A stretch of DNA of 64,000 bases from Mycolicibacterium tokaiense (GTDB taxonomy: Bacteria > Actinomycetota > Actinomycetes > Mycobacteriales > Mycobacteriaceae), in assembly GCF_010725885.1 (NCBI RefSeq), contig NZ_AP022600.1, positions 2,170,001 to 2,234,000 on the forward strand, written 5' to 3'. Below, in pieces: positions 30,231 through 42,814 of the stretch (position 1 is the first letter of the stretch; each line of letters opens with the position of its first letter). A program made the translations under genes and the position numbers. The notes under the pieces were generated by a model. The model was not told the origin of the DNA. It did not search any database and saw only the letters and a list, made by a program, of their open reading frames with translations.

Positions 30231-32129
30231 TCACACCGGCGCGACGAAGCCCACCGGGCCCGAGGCCAGGCAGATCGACAGTGCGGCGGTCTGCGCCTCG
30301 ACGGTGATCGCCGATCCCGCGCCCGGCAGCCGCACGAACACCCGGTTCAGTCCCGGGCGCACCGGCACCCTGGTCTGGGTGCCCTCATCGAGTGACACCA
30401 GGATGGTGCCGTCGCTGTTGGCCAGGTAGTTCAGCTCGGCGGTCCAGTCGGCAGGCAGCAGCGGCCCGTCCAGGGCGATGGTCACCGGTTGGTCGGGCTG
30501 GGCCAGATAGCCGCAGCCCGGCACCGGACCCTGGCGCATCGAACGCACCCAGGTCACCTGCGCGTCCACCAATCGCCCGGAAACGTCGAGCATGCGCAGA
30601 TCGGTTGTGCTGGAGGCGAATTCGGGGCGATCTGAGAGCAGGGCGAACATGTGCGAGGCCAGGTTCTCCGGCCACGCCACCCGCTGCAGGATCAGCGGAT
30701 CCACCTCCTGGTTCAGCATCGGGGCCCCCGACTGGGCGGCCTGCGACAAGGCCGCCTCAGCGTTGCGCAGGTAGGCCTTGGTCGGGTTGTCGCGCCAGCT
30801 GGTCCAGAACGTCGCGGTGGAGTACAGGCTGCTGGCCAGGAAGGCGACCGCCACGACGCTCACCGCCGCGGTGCGCCGCCGCGACGGGTCCAGCGCGGGC
30901 GACGGCCGGTTCGCTGCCGTCAATCCGATGGCGGTCAGCAGGGCCAGCACCACCACCAGATCCGGCAGATAGCGCAGCGTCTGTGCCAGTTCCAGCGCGG
31001 TGAACCGCGACGACCGCATCAGATAGATCGGGATCTGGCACGCCACCGCATAGCCCAGCGCGGTGGCCAGCACCAGCCCGATCCGGCGCTTGCGGGCCAG
31101 CGCCAGTGCCAGCACGGCGGCCAGTGCCAGCCAGCCGAGCACCATCACCGTCGGTGGCGGCAACGCCCACGGGGATGCCGGGGCCCAGCGCTGCCAGTCC
31201 CACGGACCACCGGCCAGGCCGGGGACGATCCCGTGGGTGAAGCTGCGGGTCAGCAGATCCCACGTCATCCCGAGATCGGTGCTCCAGCGCTGCTGATCCA
31301 CCACCACCACATAGACGGCGATCCACGCGGCCGTCACCGCCAGCATCGGGACCCACAGTGCGCGGCCACGGCGCCATGCCGCGCGTAGCCAATCCTGCTC
31401 GGCGCCAACGTAACCGATGAGTGCAAGGACGGCGAATGCCACGAACGGGATGACGGCGGCCTTCTCGAAGAACAGCAGACCGCCCACGTACGCCGCCGTA
31501 CCCGTCACGGCGTGGCGCCGGGCACCCTTGCGCGCCAACAGGATCGCATCCCCGCACACCCACGCCAGGGCCGCGAGCATGGGCAGTGAATTCAGCCCGG
31601 CTGCCCACCAGGCGAAACCCGGTAACCCGAGCGGGGTGAACAGCGCAAAGAGCAGTGGCAACAGCAGTACCGGCCGCCAGCCCAGGATCAGGTACAGGGT
31701 GCGCAGCAGCGACAGCGAGGCCAGGGCCTGCAGGATCACCAGGCTGATCGCCGGTCCCGCCCACACCAGCGGGGCGAGCCGCGTGATCAGCCCGCCGAGC
31801 AGAAAACCCGCGGGCATCACATGGCCGTCGTGGTCGTCGAACAAATACCCCGGCGCCCACAGGTCCTGGGTTCCGGCGCGGCCCACCAGGATCAGGTCGT
31901 CCCAGTAGAAATAGCCGCCGAACGCCAGCACCCCCCGGACCACCAGGGACAGCGCGATCAGCCCGAAGGCCGCGTTCCTGACGAGGATGTCTCTACCGGG
32001 GATAGGCGTCTCCGGCCTTCCTGCGGGCCTGCCACGCCGATGCCACCATGTCCTGCAACGAATGCCGCATGGTCCAGCCCAGGTCGCGGGCCGCCAGGTC
32101 ACCGGCGGCGACGATCCGGGCCGGGTCAC
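30231..32129 (-). CDS. Polytopic membrane protein (Rv3635-like), possible GT-C glycosyltransferase; start unresolved
   Basis: Up to 632 residues; the conserved part starts near NAAFGLIALSLVVRG (around 31980). About ten to twelve membrane segments, an early loop with YFYWDDLILVGRAG (a DD motif of the kind used by GT-C glycosyltransferases), and an extracytoplasmic C-terminal domain of about 180 residues. No ATG, GTG or TTG exists between 31943 and 32129 in frame. GTG 32129 would add about 46 unlikely residues overlapping galE, while GTG 31943 removes half of the first helix. It is last in the Pls-galE operon. In M. tuberculosis the matching gene is Rv3635, beside galE1. Confidence 0.75.
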   Translation of the reverse strand: MTRPGSSPPVTWRPATWAGPCGIRCRTWWHRRGRPAGRPETPIPGRDILVRNAAFGLIALSLVVRGVLAFGGYFYWDDLILVGRAGTQDLWAPGYLFDDHDGHVMPAGFLLGGLITRLAPLVWAGPAISLVILQALASLSLLRTLYLILGWRPVLLLPLLFALFTPLGLPGFAWWAAGLNSLPMLAALAWVCGDAILLARKGARRHAVTGTAAYVGGLLFFEKAAVIPFVAFAVLALIGYVGAEQDWLRAAWRRGRALWVPMLAVTAAWIAVYVVVVDQQRWSTDLGMTWDLLTRSFTHGIVPGLAGGPWDWQRWAPASPWALPPPTVMVLGWLALAAVLALALARKRRIGLVLATALGYAVACQIPIYLMRSSRFTALELAQTLRYLPDLVVVLALLTAIGLTAANRPSPALDPSRRRTAAVSVVAVAFLASSLYSTATFWTSWRDNPTKAYLRNAEAALSQAAQSGAPMLNQEVDPLILQRVAWPENLASHMFALLSDRPEFASSTTDLRMLDVSGRLVDAQVTWVRSMRQGPVPGCGYLAQPDQPVTIALDGPLLPADWTAELNYLANSDGTILVSLDEGTQTRVPVRPGLNRVFVRLPGAGSAITVEAQTAALSICLASGPVGFVAPV

Positions 32130-32970
32130 CGGGGCGGCGCGGGGTGATCTCGGGCTCGAAGTCGATGCCGGTCACCTCACGGATGGCCGTCATGATCTCG
32201 CGCACCGACGTGCCCGCACCGCTGCCCAGGTTGTACACGGGCTCCACCGGTCGGCCGGCCTCCAACCGCTGCGCCGCCGCGACGTGGGCCAGCGCCAGGT
32301 CGGCGACGTGAATGTAGTCGCGCACACAGGTGCCGTCCGGCGTCGGGTAGTCGTCGCCGTTGATTCGGGGGGTGGCACCGCGGACCAGCATGTCGAACAC
32401 CAACGGGAACAGATTGTGCGGGCTGGCGTCGAACAGGTCGTCGGAGCCGGACCCGACGACGTTGAAGTAGCGCAGGCTGGTGTGCGCCAGACCGGTGGCC
32501 CGCGCCTGGTCCGCCAGCAGCCATTCCCCGATCAGTTTGGTCTCGCCGTAGGGCGACTGCGGTGCCACCGGCGTGCTCTCGTCGACGATCTCGACGTCGA
32601 CGGCGCCGAAGGTGGCGGCGCTGGAGGAGAAGACCAGTTTGTCGACGCCGGCGCGCTCCATCGCCCGCAGCAGGATGACCATGGCGGTCACGTTCTGCTC
32701 GTAGGTGTGCAGCGGCAGCTTGACCGATTCGCCGGCGTACTTGTACCCCGCGACGTGGATGACACCGCGCAGGTCGTGACCGGCCACCGTGCTCTCGACC
32801 AGGTCCGCGTCCAGCAGCGTGCCCCGCACGAAGGTCGCCTGCTCGGGCACGAAGCGCTCGAACCCGGTGGACAGGTCGTCGAGCACCACGACGGGGATGC
32901 CGGCGTCCAGCAGGGCGCGGACCACGTGGGCACCGATGTACCCGGCGCCACCGGTCACCAGCCAGCTCAT
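31993..32970 (-). CDS. galE: UDP-glucose 4-epimerase
   Basis: 325 residues, extended SDR. NAD motif VTGGAGYIGAHVV at the N-terminus, catalytic SSSAATFGA and YGETK, SLRYFNVVGS, and TPDGTCVRDYIHVADLA. Makes UDP-galactose, needed for arabinogalactan and other cell-wall galactans. ATG at 32970 has GAGGAG upstream and overlaps the previous gene's stop (ATGA), so it is translationally coupled to the flippase-like gene. Corresponds to galE1 (Rv3634c). Confidence 0.95.
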   Translation of the reverse strand: MSWLVTGGAGYIGAHVVRALLDAGIPVVVLDDLSTGFERFVPEQATFVRGTLLDADLVESTVAGHDLRGVIHVAGYKYAGESVKLPLHTYEQNVTAMVILLRAMERAGVDKLVFSSSAATFGAVDVEIVDESTPVAPQSPYGETKLIGEWLLADQARATGLAHTSLRYFNVVGSGSDDLFDASPHNLFPLVFDMLVRGATPRINGDDYPTPDGTCVRDYIHVADLALAHVAAAQRLEAGRPVEPVYNLGSGAGTSVREIMTAIREVTGIDFEPEITPRRPGDPARIVAAGDLAARDLGWTMRHSLQDMVASAWQARRKAGDAYPR

Positions 32971-34208
32971 GTCGTCTCCTCGGTAGAAGGTCCTCTGGCA
33001 GCGTAGGTGAGGGCCGTGATGTGCACGCCGATGCCCACCAGCGGACCACACAGCAGGGCCACCACGGTGCGGGTCTCCAGGGCGACCGGCAAGGTGAGCA
33101 GCAACCCCGACGCCACGGTGGCGCTCACCCAGCCCAGCGAGTAGGCCCGATGCAACGCCGCCGCCACGGTGGCCGCTCCGGTGACCGTCAGCAGGGCGAT
33201 CGCCACCGCACCCGCCGTCAGCCAGGCCAACAGCGACCCCGGTGCCACGTAGTCGGGGCCGAACCCCACCCGCAGCAGCCACGGTCCGGCCAGCCCCGCC
33301 GCCACCACGCACACCGCACCGCAGGCCGCCACCAGCGCGGCCGGCGCGGCCAGCGCGCGGACCCGGTGGCTGCGCTGGTCGACGAAGTGGGCGATCAGAT
33401 TGCCCTGCATCGCGGTCAGCGGCACCAGGAGCGGCGCGCGGGTCAGGGTGACGGCCAGGATCACCACCCCACCGGTGGCGCCCAGGTCGCCGGCGGTCGC
33501 CTTCAGCAGCACCGGGAAGCCCATCACCAGGATGGCGCTGGCGCCGGCGGCGGCCACGGCATGGGCGGCGCCGCGCAGGAAGGAGCCGGCGCTCTCGTGC
33601 GCCACCAGCGCGGCGGCGGCGCGGGTGCTGGGCGAGAGGATCAGCAGCGCCAGCCAGGAGGCCGCACCGGCCACCGTCGCCCACAGAAAGCCCACCAGGC
33701 CCCAGCCCGCCAGGACGGTCGCCGCGGCCACCGCCACCCGCAGCACGGCGTCGGTGACCATCAGCGCGCCGTACTGGCTCCAGCGGCCGGAGCCGGCCAG
33801 CACCCCCAGCAGCGTGGAGTGCACGCAGAACCCGGCCAGCCCGCCGGCCAGCAAGAGCACCGACAGCGTGCGGGCTTCGGTGAACACGTGCGGGCCCCAC
33901 CACAGGGCGGTGGCGGCCAGCACCGCGGCGGTCAGCACACCCGCCGCGATCCCCAGCTGCAATGGACGGGTGGTCGACGGACCGCCCGCGGGACTGGTTG
34001 CCGCCAAACGGATCTCGCGGGTGGTCTGCTGCAGCAGGCCGAAGGCGGCGCCGGAGACCAGGCCGAAGGCGCCCCAGAAAACCGCGAACACCGAGAAGCC
34101 GGCCGGGTCCAGATCGCGGGCCGCCAGGTAGAGCACCAGGTAACCGCACACCGCGGTCACCGCAGTAGCGACGCCCACTTTCGCGACGCTGCTGCCGGTG
34201 ACACTCAC
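32967..34208 (-). CDS. Flippase-like polysaccharide/lipid export membrane protein
   Basis: 413 residues with about twelve hydrophobic segments and short loops, the look of the MOP (Wzx/MurJ-like) superfamily. No catalytic motif. GTG start at 34208 overlaps the peptidase stop by four bases (GTGA), and the stop overlaps the galE ATG. It probably flips or exports a glycan or lipid-linked unit. In this operon it could also relate to a product of the Pls-like synthetase, though Pls proteins are thought to secrete their own product. Confidence 0.8.
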   Translation of the reverse strand: MSVTGSSVAKVGVATAVTAVCGYLVLYLAARDLDPAGFSVFAVFWGAFGLVSGAAFGLLQQTTREIRLAATSPAGGPSTTRPLQLGIAAGVLTAAVLAATALWWGPHVFTEARTLSVLLLAGGLAGFCVHSTLLGVLAGSGRWSQYGALMVTDAVLRVAVAAATVLAGWGLVGFLWATVAGAASWLALLILSPSTRAAAALVAHESAGSFLRGAAHAVAAAGASAILVMGFPVLLKATAGDLGATGGVVILAVTLTRAPLLVPLTAMQGNLIAHFVDQRSHRVRALAAPAALVAACGAVCVVAAGLAGPWLLRVGFGPDYVAPGSLLAWLTAGAVAIALLTVTGAATVAAALHRAYSLGWVSATVASGLLLTLPVALETRTVVALLCGPLVGIGVHITALTYAARGPSTEETT

Positions 34209-35527
34209 AGGTCCGGGACTGCCGTGGAGTAGAGCCAGGCCTGCCACAGCGGGCGTAGCGACTGATCGGAGTAGTTGGCCGCCAGGCCGGTGAAGTCGTC
34301 GGTGACCACGGTGGAGTGGCGGTAGCGCGTGGTCCAGTTCTGCAGTAGCGCAAAGAAATTCTTGTCACCGATCCGGGTGCGCAGGGCGTGCAGCAGCAGC
34401 GCACCGCGCTTGTAGACCCGGTCGTCGAACATGTCGGCCGGCCCGGGATCGGCCAGCAGCAGGTTCTGCGGCGAGGCCTTCAGGCGTTGGTGGTAGCGGC
34501 GGGCCCATTCGGCGGTGTCCGGACCGCCGGACTCCTGCGACCACAGCCATTCGGCGTAGCAGGCGAAGCCCTCGTGCAACCAGATGTCGCGCCAGCGGCG
34601 CGCGGTCACACTGTTGCCGAACCACTGGTGGGCCAGTTCGTGCGCGATCAGGCGCTCGGCGCCGCGCTTGCCGTCGCAGTGATTGGCGCCGAACACCGAA
34701 AGTCCCTGTGCCTCCAGCGGAATCTCGAGATCGTCGTCGGTGACCACCACCGTGTAGCCGCTGTCCACCGGGTATTCGCCGAAGAGCTTGATGAAGGTCT
34801 TCATCATCTGCGGCTGCCTGCCGAAGTCGTGGTCGAAGTCGCGCCGCAGCCGTTCGGGCAACACCGCCGACATCGGCACCGGCGATTTGGGCAGCTTGTG
34901 CCGGACGTAATCGCCGATCTGCAGGGTAGCCAGATAGGTCGATGTGGGTTCGGCCAATTCATAGGTCCACGTGGTCATGCCGGCGCGGACCTTCTTGCTC
35001 AGCAGTTCGCCGTTGGCCAGCGCGTAGTACGGGCTGTCGGTGCTCACGGCGATGCGGAAGCTCGCCTTGGCTGCCGGGTGGTCGTCGCAGGGGAACCACG
35101 ACGCCGCGCCATTGGGCTGGCCCGCCACCAGCGCACCGTTGCTCAGTTCCTCGAATCCGACGTCGCCCCAATGGGTTCGGATGGGGCGCGGCGATCCGTT
35201 GTAGCGGATGTCGACGGTCAAGGCGGCCCCGGCGGGCAGTTCGGCGGCCAGGGTGATGGTCAGCTTGCCGGCTGCGGACTTGTAGTTCGCCGGGCGTTTG
35301 CCGTTGACCGACACCTTCGACACCGCGAGCGCCGGTGAGAGATCCAAGGAGAACGAGCGCAATTCGGCCAGGGTCACCGCGGTGATCGACACCGCGCCGG
35401 CCAGGCGGTTGATCGCCATCTTGTACTCGAGGTCGAGTTCGTAGCGCGACACCCGGTAGCCGAAGTTGCCGTTGTCCGGCAGATACGGGTCGATCACCGG
35501 TCCCTTGGTGGTTTTCTTCTTCCTCAA
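34205..35527 (-). CDS. M1-family zinc metallopeptidase adjacent to the Pls-like synthetase
   Basis: 440 residues, gluzincin aminopeptidase fold. The zinc motif is H296-E297-x-x-H300 in AHELAHQWFG, with E319 as third ligand in LHEGFACYAEW. The GAMEN-type exopeptidase loop appears modified (EIPLEAQGLSVFG). No signal peptide. I place the start at the TTG (35527) that overlaps the synthetase stop (TTGA); a GTG at 35557 would read the synthetase C-terminus out of frame. In Streptomyces albulus an M1-type enzyme degrades epsilon-poly-lysine and is linked to pls, so this peptidase may trim or recycle the product of the neighbouring gene. That role is inference. Confidence 0.9.
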   Translation of the reverse strand: MRKKKTTKGPVIDPYLPDNGNFGYRVSRYELDLEYKMAINRLAGAVSITAVTLAELRSFSLDLSPALAVSKVSVNGKRPANYKSAAGKLTITLAAELPAGAALTVDIRYNGSPRPIRTHWGDVGFEELSNGALVAGQPNGAASWFPCDDHPAAKASFRIAVSTDSPYYALANGELLSKKVRAGMTTWTYELAEPTSTYLATLQIGDYVRHKLPKSPVPMSAVLPERLRRDFDHDFGRQPQMMKTFIKLFGEYPVDSGYTVVVTDDDLEIPLEAQGLSVFGANHCDGKRGAERLIAHELAHQWFGNSVTARRWRDIWLHEGFACYAEWLWSQESGGPDTAEWARRYHQRLKASPQNLLLADPGPADMFDDRVYKRGALLLHALRTRIGDKNFFALLQNWTTRYRHSTVVTDDFTGLAANYSDQSLRPLWQAWLYSTAVPDL

Positions 35528-38500
35528 GCGTTCGACTTCTTCTTCTTGGTCACCCACGGGGCAATGGGATTGCCCTGCCAGCGCGTCGAGGCCGGCACCT
35601 CGTCACCGCGCATCACCAGCGACGCCGGTCCGATGGTGGCGCCGGCACCCACCTTGGCGGCGGGCAGTGCCACACAGTGGGTGCCCAGGGTGGCGCCTTC
35701 CTCCAGAGTTACCGTGTCCATCCGCATGATGCGGTCGTGGAACAGGTGCGTCTGGACCACACATCCGCGGTTCACGGTGGCGCCGCGGCCCAGGGTCACC
35801 AGGTCGGCTTCCGGGAGCCAGTAGGTCTCACACCAGACGCCGCGGCCGATCTTTGCACCGAGGCCGCGTAGCCACAGGTTCATCACCGGGGTGCCACTGG
35901 CCGCGCGGGCGAACCACGGGGCGGCCACCGTCTCGACGAAGGTGTCGGCCACCTCGTTGCGCCAGACGAACGACGACCACAGAGGATACTCGATCGCCGG
36001 GATCCGGCCCACCACAAGCCATTTGGCCACGACGGCGATCAGGCCGGCGACGGCGCCCGCGGTCAGCAGCACGGCCCCCCCGGCCGCAGCGGCCCACAGG
36101 TAACCGTGGTCGGTGATGATGATCTGCAGTGCGGCCAGCACGGCGACGCCGATGCCGAAGGTGACGATCATCGGGATCAGCCGGCACGTCTCGACCGCGC
36201 CGCGCATCATCTTCAGTCGCGGGGGCGGTGCGAACGTGCGCAGCGCATCACCTTCGGTGGGCTGGCGGCGCAACCGGATCGGGGGGCTACCCAGCCAGGA
36301 CGAGCCCTTCTTCGCCTTGTGCGGCGTGGCCGAGAGCACCGCCACCAGCCCGTCGTCGGGCACCCGGCGTCCGGGCTGGGTGATGCCCGAGTTGCCGAGG
36401 AACGCGCGCTTGCCCACGGTGGCTTTGGCGACGTGTATCCAGCCGCCGCCGAGTTCATAGGAAGCCACCATGGTGTCGTCGGCCAGGAAGGCGCCGTCTT
36501 CGACCACGGTGAACTTCGGGGTCAGCAGGGCCGTCGAGATCTCGGTGTCCTTGCCCACCGTCGCGCCCAGCAGCCGCAACCACCAGGGGGTCAGCAGGCT
36601 GGCGTACAGCGGGAACAGGTAGTTGCGGGCGGCGTCCATCAGGCGCTCGGTGGCCCACAGCTGCCAGCCGACCCGGCTGCGCACCGGGTGGTACCCCTCA
36701 TGCAGACCCAACGCCATCACCCGTACCCCGAGCACGGTGATCCCGGCGTAGACGACGATCGCCGCAAAGGTGGCCACCGGGATCCAGGGCAGCGCGGTCA
36801 GCGCCGCCTCCACCGGATCGGCAGTGTCACGGACCGCCCACCCGATGACCGCCAGCCCCGCCGCCAGGGCGGCCAGGGGCAGCGAGCCCAGCAGTACCGA
36901 GGTGAGGCCGTACATCGCCACCCAGACCGGTGCCCGCGCCGGCCGGTGATCGGGCCAGGGATGTTTGGCCTTGCCGGATTTCACCGCCGGCGAGCCCTTC
37001 CAGTACTGGCCGTTCTTGACCTTGCCCACCACGCCGGAGCCTGGCGCGACGTCGGCGTTCTTGCCGATCACCGCACCCGGCAGCAGCGTGGTGCGGGCGC
37101 CGACGGTCGCGTCGTTGCCGATGGTGATCTCGCCGACGTGGAACAGGTCGCCGTCCACCCAGTGTCCGGACAGGTCGACCTCCGGTTCGATGGAGCTGCG
37201 GTGACCCAGCGTCATCATCCCGGTCACCGGAGGTGCCGAATGCAGGTCGACACCCTTGCCGACCTTGTTACCCAGCGCGCGGGCGTAGTAGACCAGCCAC
37301 GGCGCGCCGGCCAGGTTCTCGGCACCGCTGGCGTCGGCCAGGCGTTCGGCCAGCCACACCCGCATGTGTGCGGAGCCGCCCCGTTTGTAGGTGCCGGGTT
37401 TGAGGCCGGAGAGCATCATCTGCGCCCCCAGCACGGCGATGGCCATGCGCCCGACGGGTGAGATGAACAGCAGGAACCCGGCCAGGACCCACCACCAGCT
37501 GACCGGGGTCAGCCAGCTCACCTGTGCCGAGAAGAGGTTGTTGAGCAACGCCAGCCACGTCACCCACTGCAGCCCGGTGAGCGTGGCGAGCGGCCACGAC
37601 AGCACCACCTGCGCGGCCTGGGTGAACAGAGGTGTGGGCGTGACGTGGCGGGTCTCGACCTCGACGGGCGGGTCCAGCTCGTCGAGATAACCGGCCAGCG
37701 ATCCCAGGCGCGGGTGGTCGTAGAGATCGGCGACCGTCACCTGCGGGTAGCGCTGGCGCAGTGCAGCCACCAGCTGCGCGGCCGACAGCGACCCCCCGCC
37801 CTCGGCGAAGAAGTCGGCCTCGGGGCCTTCGATGTGCGCCCCCAGGACGTCGCGCCACAGCCCGGCCAGCCAGCCCAGGGTGCCACCCAGGTCGTCGGCC
37901 TCCTCGTGGACGTCCAGACCCGGCGGCGGCCAGGGCAGAGCGTTGCGGTCGACCTTGCCCGACGTGCGGGTGGGCAGTTCGTCCACCAGCACCAGGCGCG
38001 GCACCAGGGCGGCGGGCAGCGCCTCGGCCAGGGCCCCGCGCGCGGCGTGGATGTCGAAATTCGGGTCGGCGGACGCGATGTAGCCCACCAGCAGCGGGGT
38101 ACCGCTGGTCGTCTTGCGCACCGCCGCGGCACCGCCGGAGACCCCGGGCAGGTTCACCAGGGCGGCGTCCACCTCACCCAGTTCGATCCGACGGCCGCCC
38201 ACCTTCACCTGGTCGTCGGCGCGGCCCTGGAAGTAGAGCCCGTCGGGTTCCAGCCGCACCAGGTCGCCGCTGCGGTAGGCGCGCGCCCACCCCAGCGTCT
38301 CCATCGGGGCGAACTTCTCGGCGTCCTTGGCCGGGTCGAGGTAGCGGGCCAGCCCCACACCACCGATGACGAGCTCGCCCACCTGGCCGTAGCCCACCTG
38401 ATTGCCGGCGGCATCGACCACGGCCAGGTCCCAGCCGGGCAGCGGCAGCCCGATGCTGACGGGTCCTCGGCCGTCCAGGGGAGCGGCGCAGGCCACCACG

Positions 38501-39402
38501 GTGGCCTCGGTGGGGCCGTAGGTGTTCCAGACCTCACGACCGTCGACGGCCAGCCGTTCGGCGAGTTCCGGAGGGCAGGCCTCGCCGCCGAAGATGAGCA
38601 GCCGCACCGCTTCCAGGGCCTCGGCCGGCCACAGCGCGGCCAGGGTGGGCACCGTCGAGACCACGGTGACGTCGCGCGACACCAACCATGGGCCCAGGTC
38701 CATTCCGCTGCGCACCAGCGACCGCGGCGCCGGCACCAGGCAGGCGCCGTTGCGCCAGGCCAGCCACATCTCCTCGCACGATGCGTCGAAGGCGACCGAC
38801 AGGCCGGCCAGCACCCGGTCGCCGGGGCCGATGGGACTGTTCTTCAGGAATGTCTGGGCCTCGGCGTCGACGAATGCGGCGGCACTGCGGTGTGTCACCG
38901 CCACACCCTTGGGGGTGCCGGTGGAGCCGGAGGTGAAGATGATCCAGGCGTCGTCACGGCCCAGCGGTGGAGCGGCGCGCCAGCCTCGGGACTGGCCGGT
39001 CCGCCGGGCCAGACCGGCCTCGGTGATGACGGCCACCACGTCGGCCTCGCCGAAGACCAGATCGGCGCGCTCGGGCGGGTCGTCGGCGTCCACCGGGACG
39101 TAGGCGGCACCCGCGGCCAGCGTCGAGAGGATCGCCACGTACAGCGCGTAGGAGCCCGACGGCATCCGGATGCCGATGCGATCGCCGCGCCCGATCCCAC
39201 GGGCGGCCAACCAGCCCACACTGTCTTCGATGTCGGCGATCAGCTCGCTGTAGGTGAGCTGGACGGTGCCGTCGTCGAGGGCGGGCGAGTCCGGGTAGCG
39301 GGCGGCCGTGTCGTAGAGGATGTCGATCAGCGTCCGGGGTTTCGGTGCCGCCGTCGACAGCAGGTACTGCGACGGGATTGCGGTGCTGGGATCGGCGGAC
39401 AC
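35524..39402 (-). CDS. Pls/PosA-type single-module NRPS (amino-acid homopolymer synthetase-like)
   Basis: 1292 residues, close to epsilon-poly-L-lysine synthetase in length and plan. Adenylation domain about 25-510: IIFTSGSTGTPKGVAVTH (A3), FDASCEEMW (A4), NTYGPTEATV (A5), YRSGDLVRL (A7), GRADDQVKVGGRRIELGE (A8), SGKVDRNALP (A10). Carrier domain with phosphopantetheine Ser538 in EGGGSLSAAQL. From about 610 onward three pairs of membrane helices alternate with three hexapeptide-repeat (left-handed beta-helix) domains, the tandem C-like domains of Pls. By eye against GrsA the ten code residues read D A E S I G T V V K, near the lysine code. GTG start; the first gene of a five-gene overlapping operon. 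Confidence 0.92.
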   Translation of the reverse strand: MSADPSTAIPSQYLLSTAAPKPRTLIDILYDTAARYPDSPALDDGTVQLTYSELIADIEDSVGWLAARGIGRGDRIGIRMPSGSYALYVAILSTLAAGAAYVPVDADDPPERADLVFGEADVVAVITEAGLARRTGQSRGWRAAPPLGRDDAWIIFTSGSTGTPKGVAVTHRSAAAFVDAEAQTFLKNSPIGPGDRVLAGLSVAFDASCEEMWLAWRNGACLVPAPRSLVRSGMDLGPWLVSRDVTVVSTVPTLAALWPAEALEAVRLLIFGGEACPPELAERLAVDGREVWNTYGPTEATVVACAAPLDGRGPVSIGLPLPGWDLAVVDAAGNQVGYGQVGELVIGGVGLARYLDPAKDAEKFAPMETLGWARAYRSGDLVRLEPDGLYFQGRADDQVKVGGRRIELGEVDAALVNLPGVSGGAAAVRKTTSGTPLLVGYIASADPNFDIHAARGALAEALPAALVPRLVLVDELPTRTSGKVDRNALPWPPPGLDVHEEADDLGGTLGWLAGLWRDVLGAHIEGPEADFFAEGGGSLSAAQLVAALRQRYPQVTVADLYDHPRLGSLAGYLDELDPPVEVETRHVTPTPLFTQAAQVVLSWPLATLTGLQWVTWLALLNNLFSAQVSWLTPVSWWWVLAGFLLFISPVGRMAIAVLGAQMMLSGLKPGTYKRGGSAHMRVWLAERLADASGAENLAGAPWLVYYARALGNKVGKGVDLHSAPPVTGMMTLGHRSSIEPEVDLSGHWVDGDLFHVGEITIGNDATVGARTTLLPGAVIGKNADVAPGSGVVGKVKNGQYWKGSPAVKSGKAKHPWPDHRPARAPVWVAMYGLTSVLLGSLPLAALAAGLAVIGWAVRDTADPVEAALTALPWIPVATFAAIVVYAGITVLGVRVMALGLHEGYHPVRSRVGWQLWATERLMDAARNYLFPLYASLLTPWWLRLLGATVGKDTEISTALLTPKFTVVEDGAFLADDTMVASYELGGGWIHVAKATVGKRAFLGNSGITQPGRRVPDDGLVAVLSATPHKAKKGSSWLGSPPIRLRRQPTEGDALRTFAPPPRLKMMRGAVETCRLIPMIVTFGIGVAVLAALQIIITDHGYLWAAAAGGAVLLTAGAVAGLIAVVAKWLVVGRIPAIEYPLWSSFVWRNEVADTFVETVAAPWFARAASGTPVMNLWLRGLGAKIGRGVWCETYWLPEADLVTLGRGATVNRGCVVQTHLFHDRIMRMDTVTLEEGATLGTHCVALPAAKVGAGATIGPASLVMRGDEVPASTRWQGNPIAPWVTKKKKSNA

Positions 39403-39499
39403 AATCAGAGGATCCTAGGCGTCGGTGGTGTCGGCGGGGTGCCATGCACGCCCGGCGTGGGTACTCCGTTTGGCGGAAATGCCAGACCACCTGACAGAA

Positions 39500-39645
39500 T
39501 GTCTGTCAGAGGGGAGTATTCCTTCGCTGCGGTGTCGTCAATACGTCGACCGTCCATACGGACGACCGGCGCCGTGGACCGCCTTGGCGTGACGCAGCGG
39601 TGGAAGAGACCTCTGGCGTTTCGCTGACGACCGGAGGCTTTTCTG
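39500..39645 (+). ncRNA. Probable yybP-ykoY (Mn2+) riboswitch
   Basis: The leader of the TerC-family gene contains the hallmark GAGGGGAGTA (39508-39517) and, 90 bases on, GAGACCTCTGGCG followed by CGACCGGAGG. This is the standard setting and partial consensus of the manganese-sensing yybP-ykoY RNA. CCTCTGG (39610-39616) can pair with CCGGAGG (39631-39637), which contains the ribosome binding site of the downstream ATG, so control is probably at translation initiation. I did not fold the RNA. Confidence 0.7.
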
Positions 39646-39646
39646 C

Positions 39647-40714
39647 ATGAATGTTTCGGGGCTCGAATGGGCCATCACGCTGGGTGTGACCATCGCGATC
39701 ATCGTGTTCGACGTGATCGTGATCGCCCGCAATCCGCACGAACCCTCGATGAAGGAGTGCGGTAGGGCGCTGTCGGTCTACGTCACTCTGGCGATTCTGT
39801 TCGGCCTCTGGACGTGGTTCTTCCACGGCGGTCAGTACGGCCTGGAGTTCTTCGCGGGCTGGCTCACCGAGTACAGCCTGTCGGTGGACAACCTGTTCAT
39901 CTTCATCATCATCATGGCCAGCTTCAATGTGCCGAGGAAGTATCAGCAGGAAGCCCTGATGGTGGGCATCATCTTGGCGCTGATCTTCCGCGGCATCTTC
40001 ATCGCCCTGGGCGCGGTGGCCATCAACCAGTTCTCCTGGGTGTTCTACATCTTCGGCCTGTTCCTGGTGTACACCGCGTGGCAGCTGATCCGCGGCAACG
40101 ACGAGCACGACGACGGTGACAACGCCGTGGTGAAGTTCGCGCGCAATCACCTCAACACCACCGACAAGTGGGACGGTCTGCGGCTGTGGATCAAGGAGGA
40201 CGGCAAGCGTCTGATGACGCCGATGTTCCTGGTGATCGTCGCGCTCGGCACCACCGATCTGATCTTCGCGCTGGACTCCATCCCGGCCATCTACGGCCTG
40301 ACCCAGGAGCCCTACCTGGTGTTCGCGGCGAACGTGTTCGCGCTGATGGGCCTGCGTCAGCTGTACTTCCTGCTGGGTGGTCTGGTGCAGCGGCTGGTCT
40401 ACCTGTCCTACGGGCTGGCCTTCATCCTGGCGTTCATCGGCGTCAAGCTCTTCTTCCACGCGCTGCACGAGAACGAGCTGCCGTTCATCAACGGCGGTGA
40501 GCACGTGATGGTGCCGGAGATTCCGACGCTGCTCAGCCTCGGTGTGATCATCATCACGCTGGCCATCACCACGGTTGCCAGCCTCTACAAGACCCGCTCC
40601 GATGAGAAGAAAGCCGTGGACCCGGACGTTCCGGTGCAACCCACCGAGAATTCCGCGGTGAATCCCTCGGAGGAAGCGCCGGGGAGTTCGCGTCCCGCTG
40701 ATCCCAACCACTGA
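39647..40714 (+). CDS. TerC/Alx-family membrane protein, probable Mn2+ exporter
   Basis: 355 residues with about nine membrane helices. TerC signatures include EYSLSVDNLFIFIIIMASF and TTDLIFALDSIPAIYGLTQEPYLVF, which carry the acidic residues (SVDN, FALDS) thought to bind the metal. The C-terminal 45 residues are a polar cytoplasmic tail. ATG at 39647 follows GGAGG with about 11-base spacing. The riboswitch-like leader supports a role in manganese efflux rather than tellurite resistance. A terminator follows the stop. Confidence 0.92.
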   Translation: MNVSGLEWAITLGVTIAIIVFDVIVIARNPHEPSMKECGRALSVYVTLAILFGLWTWFFHGGQYGLEFFAGWLTEYSLSVDNLFIFIIIMASFNVPRKYQQEALMVGIILALIFRGIFIALGAVAINQFSWVFYIFGLFLVYTAWQLIRGNDEHDDGDNAVVKFARNHLNTTDKWDGLRLWIKEDGKRLMTPMFLVIVALGTTDLIFALDSIPAIYGLTQEPYLVFAANVFALMGLRQLYFLLGGLVQRLVYLSYGLAFILAFIGVKLFFHALHENELPFINGGEHVMVPEIPTLLSLGVIIITLAITTVASLYKTRSDEKKAVDPDVPVQPTENSAVNPSEEAPGSSRPADPNH

Positions 40715-40746: not shown

Positions 40747-41142
40747 GTGGGTCATCAGAGTGGGTTGCGCGTGTTCATCGCCGATGACGTCTGGACCGAA
40801 CTGACGGCGGGCACTGCGCCCGCCGTCAGGTTCAACGCACCGGATCTGCAGCAGGCGCAGCGCATGCGTCGGGGGCTCGCCAGTGCCGCGATCCTGGATG
40901 TCACCGTCGTGGTGGACGCCGACTTCCGTGCGGCGCAGCAACAGCTGTCTTCGGCCGGCGTCGACAACACCCTGTCTTACGGGGGCACGCTCGACGGGTT
41001 GGCCGGGCTGCTGGTTGACATCTACCTCGCCGGCGTGGCCGATGGGGTGACGCTCATTCCCGCGGTGCCGCAGCAGGACGCCCGCGCGCTGGCCGAGGCG
41101 GTCTCAGCGCGGGTGGCCCAGCGGTTGCGCACGGCCGCCTGA
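40747..41142 (+). CDS. Hypothetical protein, 131 residues
   Basis: Starts at GTG (MGHQSGLRVFIADDVW). It looks like a small alpha/beta domain with a hydrophobic strand LDVTVVVDADF and a long C-terminal helix; no motif or signal peptide. The start is three bases after a hairpin and no Shine-Dalgarno is visible, which lowers confidence. Its last 89 bases overlap the convergent DUF222 gene. Function unknown. Confidence 0.6.
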   Translation: MGHQSGLRVFIADDVWTELTAGTAPAVRFNAPDLQQAQRMRRGLASAAILDVTVVVDADFRAAQQQLSSAGVDNTLSYGGTLDGLAGLLVDIYLAGVADGVTLIPAVPQQDARALAEAVSARVAQRLRTAA

Positions 41143-42814
41143 CGCCTTCACCCGTCAAAAGGGTGGATCGTCGCTGTCGTCGGTCGTCGGTCGGCGGCGG
41201 TGGGGGTGGTGGTCGCCAGTCGGCGGTGATGGATTCGTCTTCCCACGGATCGTTGATCCAGGGGCACCAGCTGGCGGTGCGACGGCGGCCACTGAGGACC
41301 AGCCGTTTGAAGCGGACGTCGTTGCGCCGCACCCGCTGCTTGATCTCCTGCGCCCGCCCCTGGTTGATCCACCGGGTCTGCTGGTTGGCGGCTTGTTTGG
41401 CGGCCAGCCCGGCCCGAGCGGCGGCGATCCGGGCGGCCTTCTCCACCTTGGGGTCCCGTGGTCGGGTCCACGGTGTGGGGCGGCACGCTGCGGCGAGGTC
41501 GTCGAACAACTCCGCCCCATCCGGGGTGCACCGGTACGTGCGCCCCGTGGGTGAGGTCCATTCGATGGTGCCGCCGGTGAGTTGTCTGGTGCTCCAGCCG
41601 CCCTCGCCGGACAGGAACGTCTTAATCCTGTGATGGGTGCGGCATTTCGGATCCAGGTTGAACCCGGCGGTCCACCCGCCGCGCAGCGGATGCTGGTGAT
41701 CGAACGGGATGCTGTGGTCGAGGTCGGCGTTCCAGGCGGGCTGGTTGCAGAACGGGAACGAGCACGTCAGCCCCCGGACGCGGACCCAGCGGTCCATCGC
41801 GGCGGACCAGTGGTGGCGCAGGAGCACCGAGGTGCCGTCGCGGGTTTCGGTGGGGGCATTCGGGTCGGTGTCGGGGTTGCGCACATCCCGGCATACGGTG
41901 CCCGGCGCATCGGCCAGCTCACGTACTTGGTCGGCGTCGATGACGCCGTAGCCCTGCAGGAAGCCGGGTTCGTCGCTGTCGCCGGTGACGGTGGCGGCGG
42001 GGGCGATGACGTTGATGACGTACTGCGCCGCCGCGGCCGTAGTCACAGCAGCGGTGGGTTTCGGGGCGGGGCAGTCCTCGCGCCCGCACGCGCACGCCAA
42101 CACAAAGCTGCCGTCGGCGATGGCCTCCGCCGCATCCACCCGCCGCTGCACCAACGTTCGCGGATCCTGGCCGCACACCGCCTTGGCCATCTGATCCAGC
42201 CGGGCATCGACTTTGGCGATCACCGGAGCGCCGGCGTAGAGGCGGATTTCACCCATTCCGTTGGGTAGTGCCTTCGCGCTGACTCGGCGTTCGGTGTCGG
42301 CGGCGACCCGACGCTCTTTGGCGCCGTCGGGATCGACGTGCAGGATGGCTCTGTCGACGGCACCTTGGAGGCGGGTGCGGGACCAGCAGTCCCAGGTCGC
42401 GATCTTCGCCGCCAGATTGCGGTCCACGTCCCGGATCGCGGTGTCGGTGACATGGGCTGTGCGGTTGATGATCAGTTTGGCGGATTCCCAGTCGAGTCGT
42501 CCCGAGGCCAGCAGACCGTAGATCTGCGGCAGCCGCTCATCAAGGGCGTCGGCATAGCCCACGATCTTCATGGCCACCGCCGGCGGTACCCCCAATGCCG
42601 GTCCGACTTCGGCGGCGGTACGCACGAACCCGGAGATCAACCCGAAACCGGGGTCGCCGTCGGGCAGCAGGGCTTGTTGGTCGAAGCCTTCGTTCATCCG
42701 CTGGGTCAGCAGTGCGGCGATGGCGGCCATCCGATGCGCCCACACCGCGGACTCATCGAGGCGGGAAGATTCCACCTCGGTGAGCAGCGCTCCGGGATCA
42801 CATCCTTCGAACAT
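41054..42814 (-). CDS. DUF222 / HNH endonuclease-domain protein (13E12 family)
   Basis: 586 residues. The N-terminal DUF222 region (to about 300) and a C-terminal HNH domain with CSFPFCNQPAWNADLDHSIPFDHQ and CRTHHRIKTF are the hallmarks of the 13E12 repeat family, present in many copies in mycobacteria. The HNH suggests nuclease activity, but biological roles are unproven. ATG at 42814. The C-terminal 29 residues (after LLTGEGV) are Pro/Arg-rich and antisense to the preceding hypothetical gene, so the true end may have been extended by loss of a stop. Confidence 0.88.
   Translation of the reverse strand: MFEGCDPGALLTEVESSRLDESAVWAHRMAAIAALLTQRMNEGFDQQALLPDGDPGFGLISGFVRTAAEVGPALGVPPAVAMKIVGYADALDERLPQIYGLLASGRLDWESAKLIINRTAHVTDTAIRDVDRNLAAKIATWDCWSRTRLQGAVDRAILHVDPDGAKERRVAADTERRVSAKALPNGMGEIRLYAGAPVIAKVDARLDQMAKAVCGQDPRTLVQRRVDAAEAIADGSFVLACACGREDCPAPKPTAAVTTAAAAQYVINVIAPAATVTGDSDEPGFLQGYGVIDADQVRELADAPGTVCRDVRNPDTDPNAPTETRDGTSVLLRHHWSAAMDRWVRVRGLTCSFPFCNQPAWNADLDHSIPFDHQHPLRGGWTAGFNLDPKCRTHHRIKTFLSGEGGWSTRQLTGGTIEWTSPTGRTYRCTPDGAELFDDLAAACRPTPWTRPRDPKVEKAARIAAARAGLAAKQAANQQTRWINQGRAQEIKQRVRRNDVRFKRLVLSGRRRTASWCPWINDPWEDESITADWRPPPPPPPTDDRRQRRSTLLTGEGVRRPCATAGPPALRPPRPARGRPAAAPRE

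Follow-up and report, generated by a model that had tools for sequence, protein, structure and literature searches.

The closest described relatives of the locus analysed here are Pls, the epsilon-poly-L-lysine (epsilon-PL) synthetase of S. albulus, the Pls of C. variabile, and PosA, the delta-poly-L-ornithine synthetase of Acinetobacter baumannii. In the Pls/PosA family the membrane domain is known in outline to lengthen the isopeptide chain. The genes pls and pldII of S. albulus ZPM are described as adjacent members of one operon with a 4-nt overlap (PMC4361855). PldII degrades epsilon-PL, and a function in self-protection has been postulated (PMC8117764). Repression of pldII in S. albulus is reported to give longer chains, and the enzyme is described as located outside the membrane (PMC9223678). 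The adenylation domain of the S. albulus synthetase has been solved as 7WEW, in which five residues, D213, E217, S256, T301 and K495, are reported to contact the lysine (PMC11253843). Mutations in PosA showed that the enzyme needs Glu at position 3 of the specificity code and that side-chain length is governed by position 2; the latter position is Ala in lysine, Met in ornithine and Phe in DAP/DAB enzymes (PMC10522769).

The Pls of C. variabile is 51% identical to the Streptomyces Pls, and its product was confirmed in S. coelicolor. In C. variabile itself epsilon-PL is reported as undetected, as is Pls by proteomics, and no epsilon-PL was reported when the gene was expressed in C. glutamicum (PMC8117764). 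Further Pls homologues in print come from Streptomyces and from coryneform bacteria including Rhodococcus (PMC8117764), from Nocardia by prediction (PMC4035055) and from a fungus (PMC7179176), while the Acinetobacter homologue is PosA (PMC10522769). Public annotation already labels mycobacterial proteins as 'Pls/PosA family'. A search of the open-licence PMC literature by title and abstract, with subscription journals mostly outside its range, gave among the papers listed neither a mycobacterial polymer of this kind nor a study of the mycobacterial pls gene, and the claim of the sequence-only reading that no cationic isopeptide polymer has been described from mycobacteria is uncontradicted at that level. 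Such clusters may nevertheless appear in the antiSMASH tables of genome papers.

The window, a stretch of 64,000 nucleotides from Mycolicibacterium tokaiense, contains a pls-type gene that is uninterrupted from its start codon at 39402 to a TGA at 35524 (Table 1); the plus strand of the same interval holds two stops. In a profile search the C-terminal part of the protein matched the Pls/PosA model TIGR02353 with a score of 745.1 bits (cut-off 423.1), and this is the sole match above the cut-off in the whole genome, a single contig of 6.33 Mb. Pfam assigns an AMP-binding domain to residues 31-353, one carrier domain (PF00550) and a single Hexapep stretch at residues 759-791. The nearest named proteins belong to Mycobacterium sp. 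MS1601 (93%) and then to other mycobacteria; the copy in M. smegmatis is 83% identical. By its sequence the protein is thus placed as an A-PCP-membrane member of the Pls/PosA family.

Table 1. Features of the pls locus in the window (positions count from the first letter of the window).
Feature	Position	Strand	Basis
pls-type synthetase gene, 1292 aa, GTG start	35524..39402	-	ORF; TIGR02353, 745 bits
Adenylation domain, residues 24-495, code DAESIGTVVK	37918..39333	-	PF00501; 7WEW, 634 bits, 64% identity
Carrier (PCP) domain, residues 511-573, phosphopantetheine serine in GGGSL	37684..37872	-	PF00550; motif position
Predicted membrane polymerisation domain, residues 597-1280	35563..37614	-	TIGR02353; AlphaFold model; hexapeptide acyltransferases nearest folds
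M1-family zinc metallopeptidase, candidate for epsilon-PL degradation (PldII-like)	34205..35557	-	PF01433/PF17900; HELAH; 6a8z; co-occurrence with pls
4-nt overlap TTGA of pls stop and candidate M1 start TTG; possible translational coupling	35524..35527	-
Gap between pls and the divergent TerC gene; promoter presumed to lie here	39403..39646	.

When the code of the adenylation domain was derived by alignment, the ten positions were found to be D206, A207, E210, S249, I270, G272, T294, V302, V303 and K483. The sequence-only reading had called the code lysine-like and very near a lysine code. The alignment goes further, as all ten residues equal those of 7WEW, which is also the best solved relative (64% identity across 503 columns; the runner-up, linear gramicidin synthetase, scored 356 bits). 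The five residues reported to contact lysine in 7WEW all map to identical code residues of the window protein, four aligned 7WEW positions being offset from the published numbering by a constant 9. For comparison, the codes of seven further adenylation-type loci in the same genome were read, those with a locus sequence among its 22 other matches, and gave six different strings (DVAHPGFINK, DFWTLGAVYK, DVCSVALVHK, DFWSVGMVHK twice, DMLNPGVETK and DAQSAGCVEK), none of them DAESIGTVVK. The latter code was present in all 107 relatives in which the ten positions could be read, these being the closest relatives by way of retrieval and not all independent, and three truncated loci agree where they are readable. 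It was also found in 38 of 60 loci from a wider sample of the class. The signature of PosA, Met at position 2 and Ser at position 9, is absent from the window protein, which has Ala and Val there, and the same Ala departs from the Phe of the poly-DAP and poly-DAB enzymes; types with Phe at position 2 made up eight of the 60 class loci. The substrate is therefore predicted from the code to be lysine, and the product to be epsilon-PL. A different diamino acid as substrate (ornithine, diaminobutyrate or beta-lysine), of the kind that members of the Pls/PosA family are reported to use elsewhere (PMC10522769), is very improbable given an Ala at position 2 that is neither Met nor Phe, ten code positions equal to 7WEW, and a neighbouring M1 gene as is typical of most lysine-code loci.

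The C-terminal region was modelled with AlphaFold (residues 580-1292) from 38 sequences, the relatives being 58-81% identical to the window protein. The model has a mean pLDDT of 83.1 and a pTM of 0.86, with residues 223-225, 459-468 and 699-713 of the model below a pLDDT of 50. It displays the same order three times: a pair of long helices, then short helices, then a left-handed beta-helix. The repeats also resemble each other in sequence, C1 and C2 being 27% identical over 167 residues (BLAST, E 2e-12), C1 and C3 27% over 115 (E 4e-11), and C2 and C3 22% over 103 (E 0.005). Of the six membrane helices expected, a simple hydropathy scan flagged five; the first (around residues 592-624) is visible in the model only. 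Hexapeptide acyltransferases are the nearest solved folds, and the match is weak across the whole model. The region is thus predicted to consist of six membrane helices and three tandem domains, C1-C3, which agrees with the pseudo-threefold body on six membrane helices predicted for PosA (PMC10522769). The architecture given in the sequence-only reading, an adenylation and a carrier domain followed by three pairs of membrane helices and three beta-helix C-like domains in 1292 residues, is borne out by TIGR02353, Pfam and the model together.

Directly downstream of pls lies a frame of 450 codons, on which the sequence-only reading was silent, as it was on the spread of the synthetase through mycobacteria. 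The frame encodes an M1-family metallopeptidase with a zinc site of the HEXXH-E pattern (HELAH at residues 306-310 and Glu 329) and with Tyr 382, which we take to be the catalytic tyrosine. Its start is either GTG 35557 or TTG 35527, of which the latter is more likely and would fall inside the pls stop codon, giving the overlap listed in Table 1. The nearest solved structure is the M1 zinc metalloprotease 6a8z, which matches residues 21-429 (E 8e-43) with the zinc motif aligned; nothing in this match ties 6a8z to a synthetase. The window M1 protein is 49-53% identical to the M1 proteins beside lysine-code synthetases in genomes of family f21, which appear to be Streptomyces-like. On this identity and on its position the protein is a candidate PldII-like enzyme. 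No hydrophobic segment was seen in it by a simple scan, whereas PldII of S. albulus is placed outside the membrane (PMC9223678).

The two genes are nearly always present or absent together. Among 148 genomes from the genus, with presence set at E <= 1e-100 for pls and E <= 1e-60 for M1, both were found in 105, M1 only in one, pls only in none and neither in 42; the counts include split or partial pls matches in G044, G045, G070 and G126 and in the second copy of G030. The lone genome with M1 only is fragmentary and 63% complete. Of 110 loci, 109 have M1 downstream of pls and in the same orientation, and in the remaining one the contig stops at pls. When residue 11 is taken as the start of M1, the genes are separated by a median of 35 nt across the 109 loci, by at most 150 nt in 103 and by 573-2139 nt in six; an overlap of 4 nt is not a general feature of the relatives.

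Outside the genus, 60 regions were picked by hand from 100 match places (121 listed), a sample in which family f21 is over-represented and from which two regions without a readable code were left out of the test. An M1 gene stood beside 36 of the 38 lysine-code synthetases, the other two having none in the fetched stretch, against four of the 20 with other codes. These 20 comprise eight of the DFE type and 12 C-terminal domains in frames of 816-1106 aa, the 'code' of the latter being taken from a poorly aligned neighbouring adenylation domain. Fisher values were 2.7e-36 for the genus and 7.7e-9 for the class loci; they ignore relatedness and are descriptive. The twelve frames (L148, L150, L154, L160, L162, L165, L167, L169, L173, L174, L175 and L198) carry Pls/PosA C-terminal domains and seem to be without an adenylation domain of their own, which would be another use of the polymerisation domain. 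A diverged M1 gene (39-41%) stands roughly 1 kb from four of the synthetases with a DFE code, which is DAB/DAP-like (L179-L182), and M1-type peptidases may serve other polymers too.

Of 394 genomes from the class, 105 had a match above the cut-off of the Pls/PosA model, and these are distributed over 34 of 137 genera. In a tree of 76 rows, made by a quick method with SH-aLRT support from 75 of 80 loci and the window (five loci were left out as truncated or poorly covered), the mycobacterial rows form one branch of 37 rows with a support of 100, next to Tsukamurella and Williamsia (97), and Nocardia forms a separate branch (100). The mycobacterial branch contains all rows labelled Mycobacterium, Mycolicibacterium or Mycolicibacter, three unlabelled rows, one labelled Bifidobacterium and the window. 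A single branch indicates that inheritance within the genus has been mainly vertical; horizontal gain was considered, and the placing of all mycobacterial rows on one branch at 100 speaks against it. The Bifidobacterium row is a MAG titled Bifidobacterium breve (L038), whose Pls has M1, flippase and TerC neighbours as well, and which is most likely a mislabelled or mixed bin. C. glutamicum, the sole one of 14 control genomes to score above the Pls/PosA cut-off, is the species that served as a host without epsilon-PL (PMC8117764).

In the window the cassette lies between TerC (39647-40714, plus strand) and a flippase gene (32967-34247, minus strand), which are 5,399 nt apart. Among the matches listed, seven pls-less genomes have TerC and the flippase side by side in divergent orientation, with 115-329 nt between them; in eight genomes that have pls elsewhere the spacing is 96-242 nt. 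In one further pls-less genome (G072) they are 5.6 kb apart, and in the remaining pls-less genomes no TerC-flippase pair was found among the matches listed. The two-gene cassette has thus changed its place within mycobacteria. The downstream flippase, GalE and membrane glycosyltransferase-like genes (30231-34247) looked co-operonic with pls. The flippase was not counted as belonging to the system, since it has a match in 144 of the 148 genus genomes including 40 of the 43 without pls. The divergent TerC was set aside as a mere neighbour, found in 118 of 148 genomes among the matches listed, paralogues included.

The gap between TerC and pls gave three Rfam matches, none near the gathering score. 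It contains a perfect, operator-like 7-bp dyad, CTGACAG-N5-CTGTCAG, at 39491-39509; counterparts of the type TGACA-N-TGTCA occur upstream of pls in three of 105 loci, one of which is the window's own copy, and a variant is present in L089. Beyond TerC, a long frame at 41054-42814 on the minus strand presumably belongs with the 13E12/HNH repeat family of mycobacteria, which it seems to resemble.

Compared with the described systems, the window locus shares with S. albulus Pls the A-PCP-membrane architecture, the ten-residue code, the similarity of the adenylation domain and an adjoining peptidase gene with a 4-nt overlap, which in the window is possible and depends on the start used. It differs in its mycobacterial host, in a product that is a prediction, and in an M1 partner for which the simple scan showed no hydrophobic segment. 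The C. variabile Pls shares the architecture and an operon with a peptidase gene, but comes from another genus and has a product that is reported as lacking in its own host (PMC8117764). PosA shares family and architecture, but has the code DMEHNGTVSK and a single-gene operon (PMC10522769).

With a probability of about 0.85, the enzyme is a lysine isopeptide synthetase, and the gene pair would encode an epsilon-PL synthetase and a peptidase dedicated to the polymer, with substrate, product and role deduced from sequence. The adenylation domain would form lysyl-AMP, the epsilon-amine probably being held by Glu210, Ser249 and Thr294, as the corresponding contacts are known from the S. albulus homologue. 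The lysine would then be loaded onto the PCP as a thioester. In the membrane domain, with its predicted pseudo-threefold beta-helix body and six helices, the epsilon-amine of one residue would attack the next thioester, and in this way the isopeptide chain would grow. The M1 metallopeptidase may trim or clear the polymer, either protecting the cell or setting the chain length. M. tuberculosis is listed among the bacteria inhibited by epsilon-PL in the MIC table of a review (PMC8506220), which implies that a producer would need protection and that free polymer would also be a burden to it.

It is possible, but somewhat doubtful, that a lysine isopeptide synthetase makes a short, cell-bound or conjugated oligomer with a function in the envelope or in lysine storage. 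The mainly vertical retention of pls in 105 of 148 sampled species is unlike that of a patchy antibiotic cluster, the M1 partner shows no hydrophobic segment in the simple scan, and PosA is reported to give 7-12-mers in vitro (PMC10522769). However, the same kind of gene pair goes with secreted 25-35-mers in S. albulus (PMC9223678), and nothing resembling an attachment enzyme is found within the pair.

It is less probable again, and on the whole unlikely, that mycobacterial pls is silent or in decay and has no product. The C. variabile gene was silent under the conditions tried (PMC8117764), and the presence of a gene therefore does not imply production. Moreover, 43 of the 148 genomes have no match, the pls of one Mycolicibacter (L034) has an in-frame stop within its tblastn alignment, and that of G045 matches over residues 9-963 only. 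Against this, the code is intact in every readable locus, and many polar residues of the C-terminal half are unchanged across 38 sequences, the most distant of which is 58% identical. One TGA is also found inside the M1 match of each of G006, G007, G107 and G131; these stops and that in L034 may reflect decay or start-site effects.

That mycobacteria use the lysine isopeptide synthetase as a working part of their physiology is held with less confidence than its assignment. The cassette is kept in about 70% of the sampled species, and both genes are absent in 42 of the 43 others. We tentatively propose, as a possibility that falls short of an even chance, that epsilon-PL, made and turned over by the pls-peptidase cassette, is an overlooked constituent of mycobacteria that serves in the envelope or acts against competitors.

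The enzyme class is already known, but it is widespread in mycobacteria, is closely associated with a peptidase gene and has a copy in M. smegmatis, which brings its role within reach of experiment. What polycationic isopeptides signify biologically has been called unclear (PMC9606270). If most mycobacterial species keep both synthetase and peptidase, this question becomes accessible in M. smegmatis, which is fast-growing and genetically tractable. A self-made polycation would bear on the charge of the envelope and on the way mycobacteria cope with cationic antimicrobials, and epsilon-PL would, if the proposal holds, be a part of mycobacterial physiology and more than a Streptomyces curiosity.
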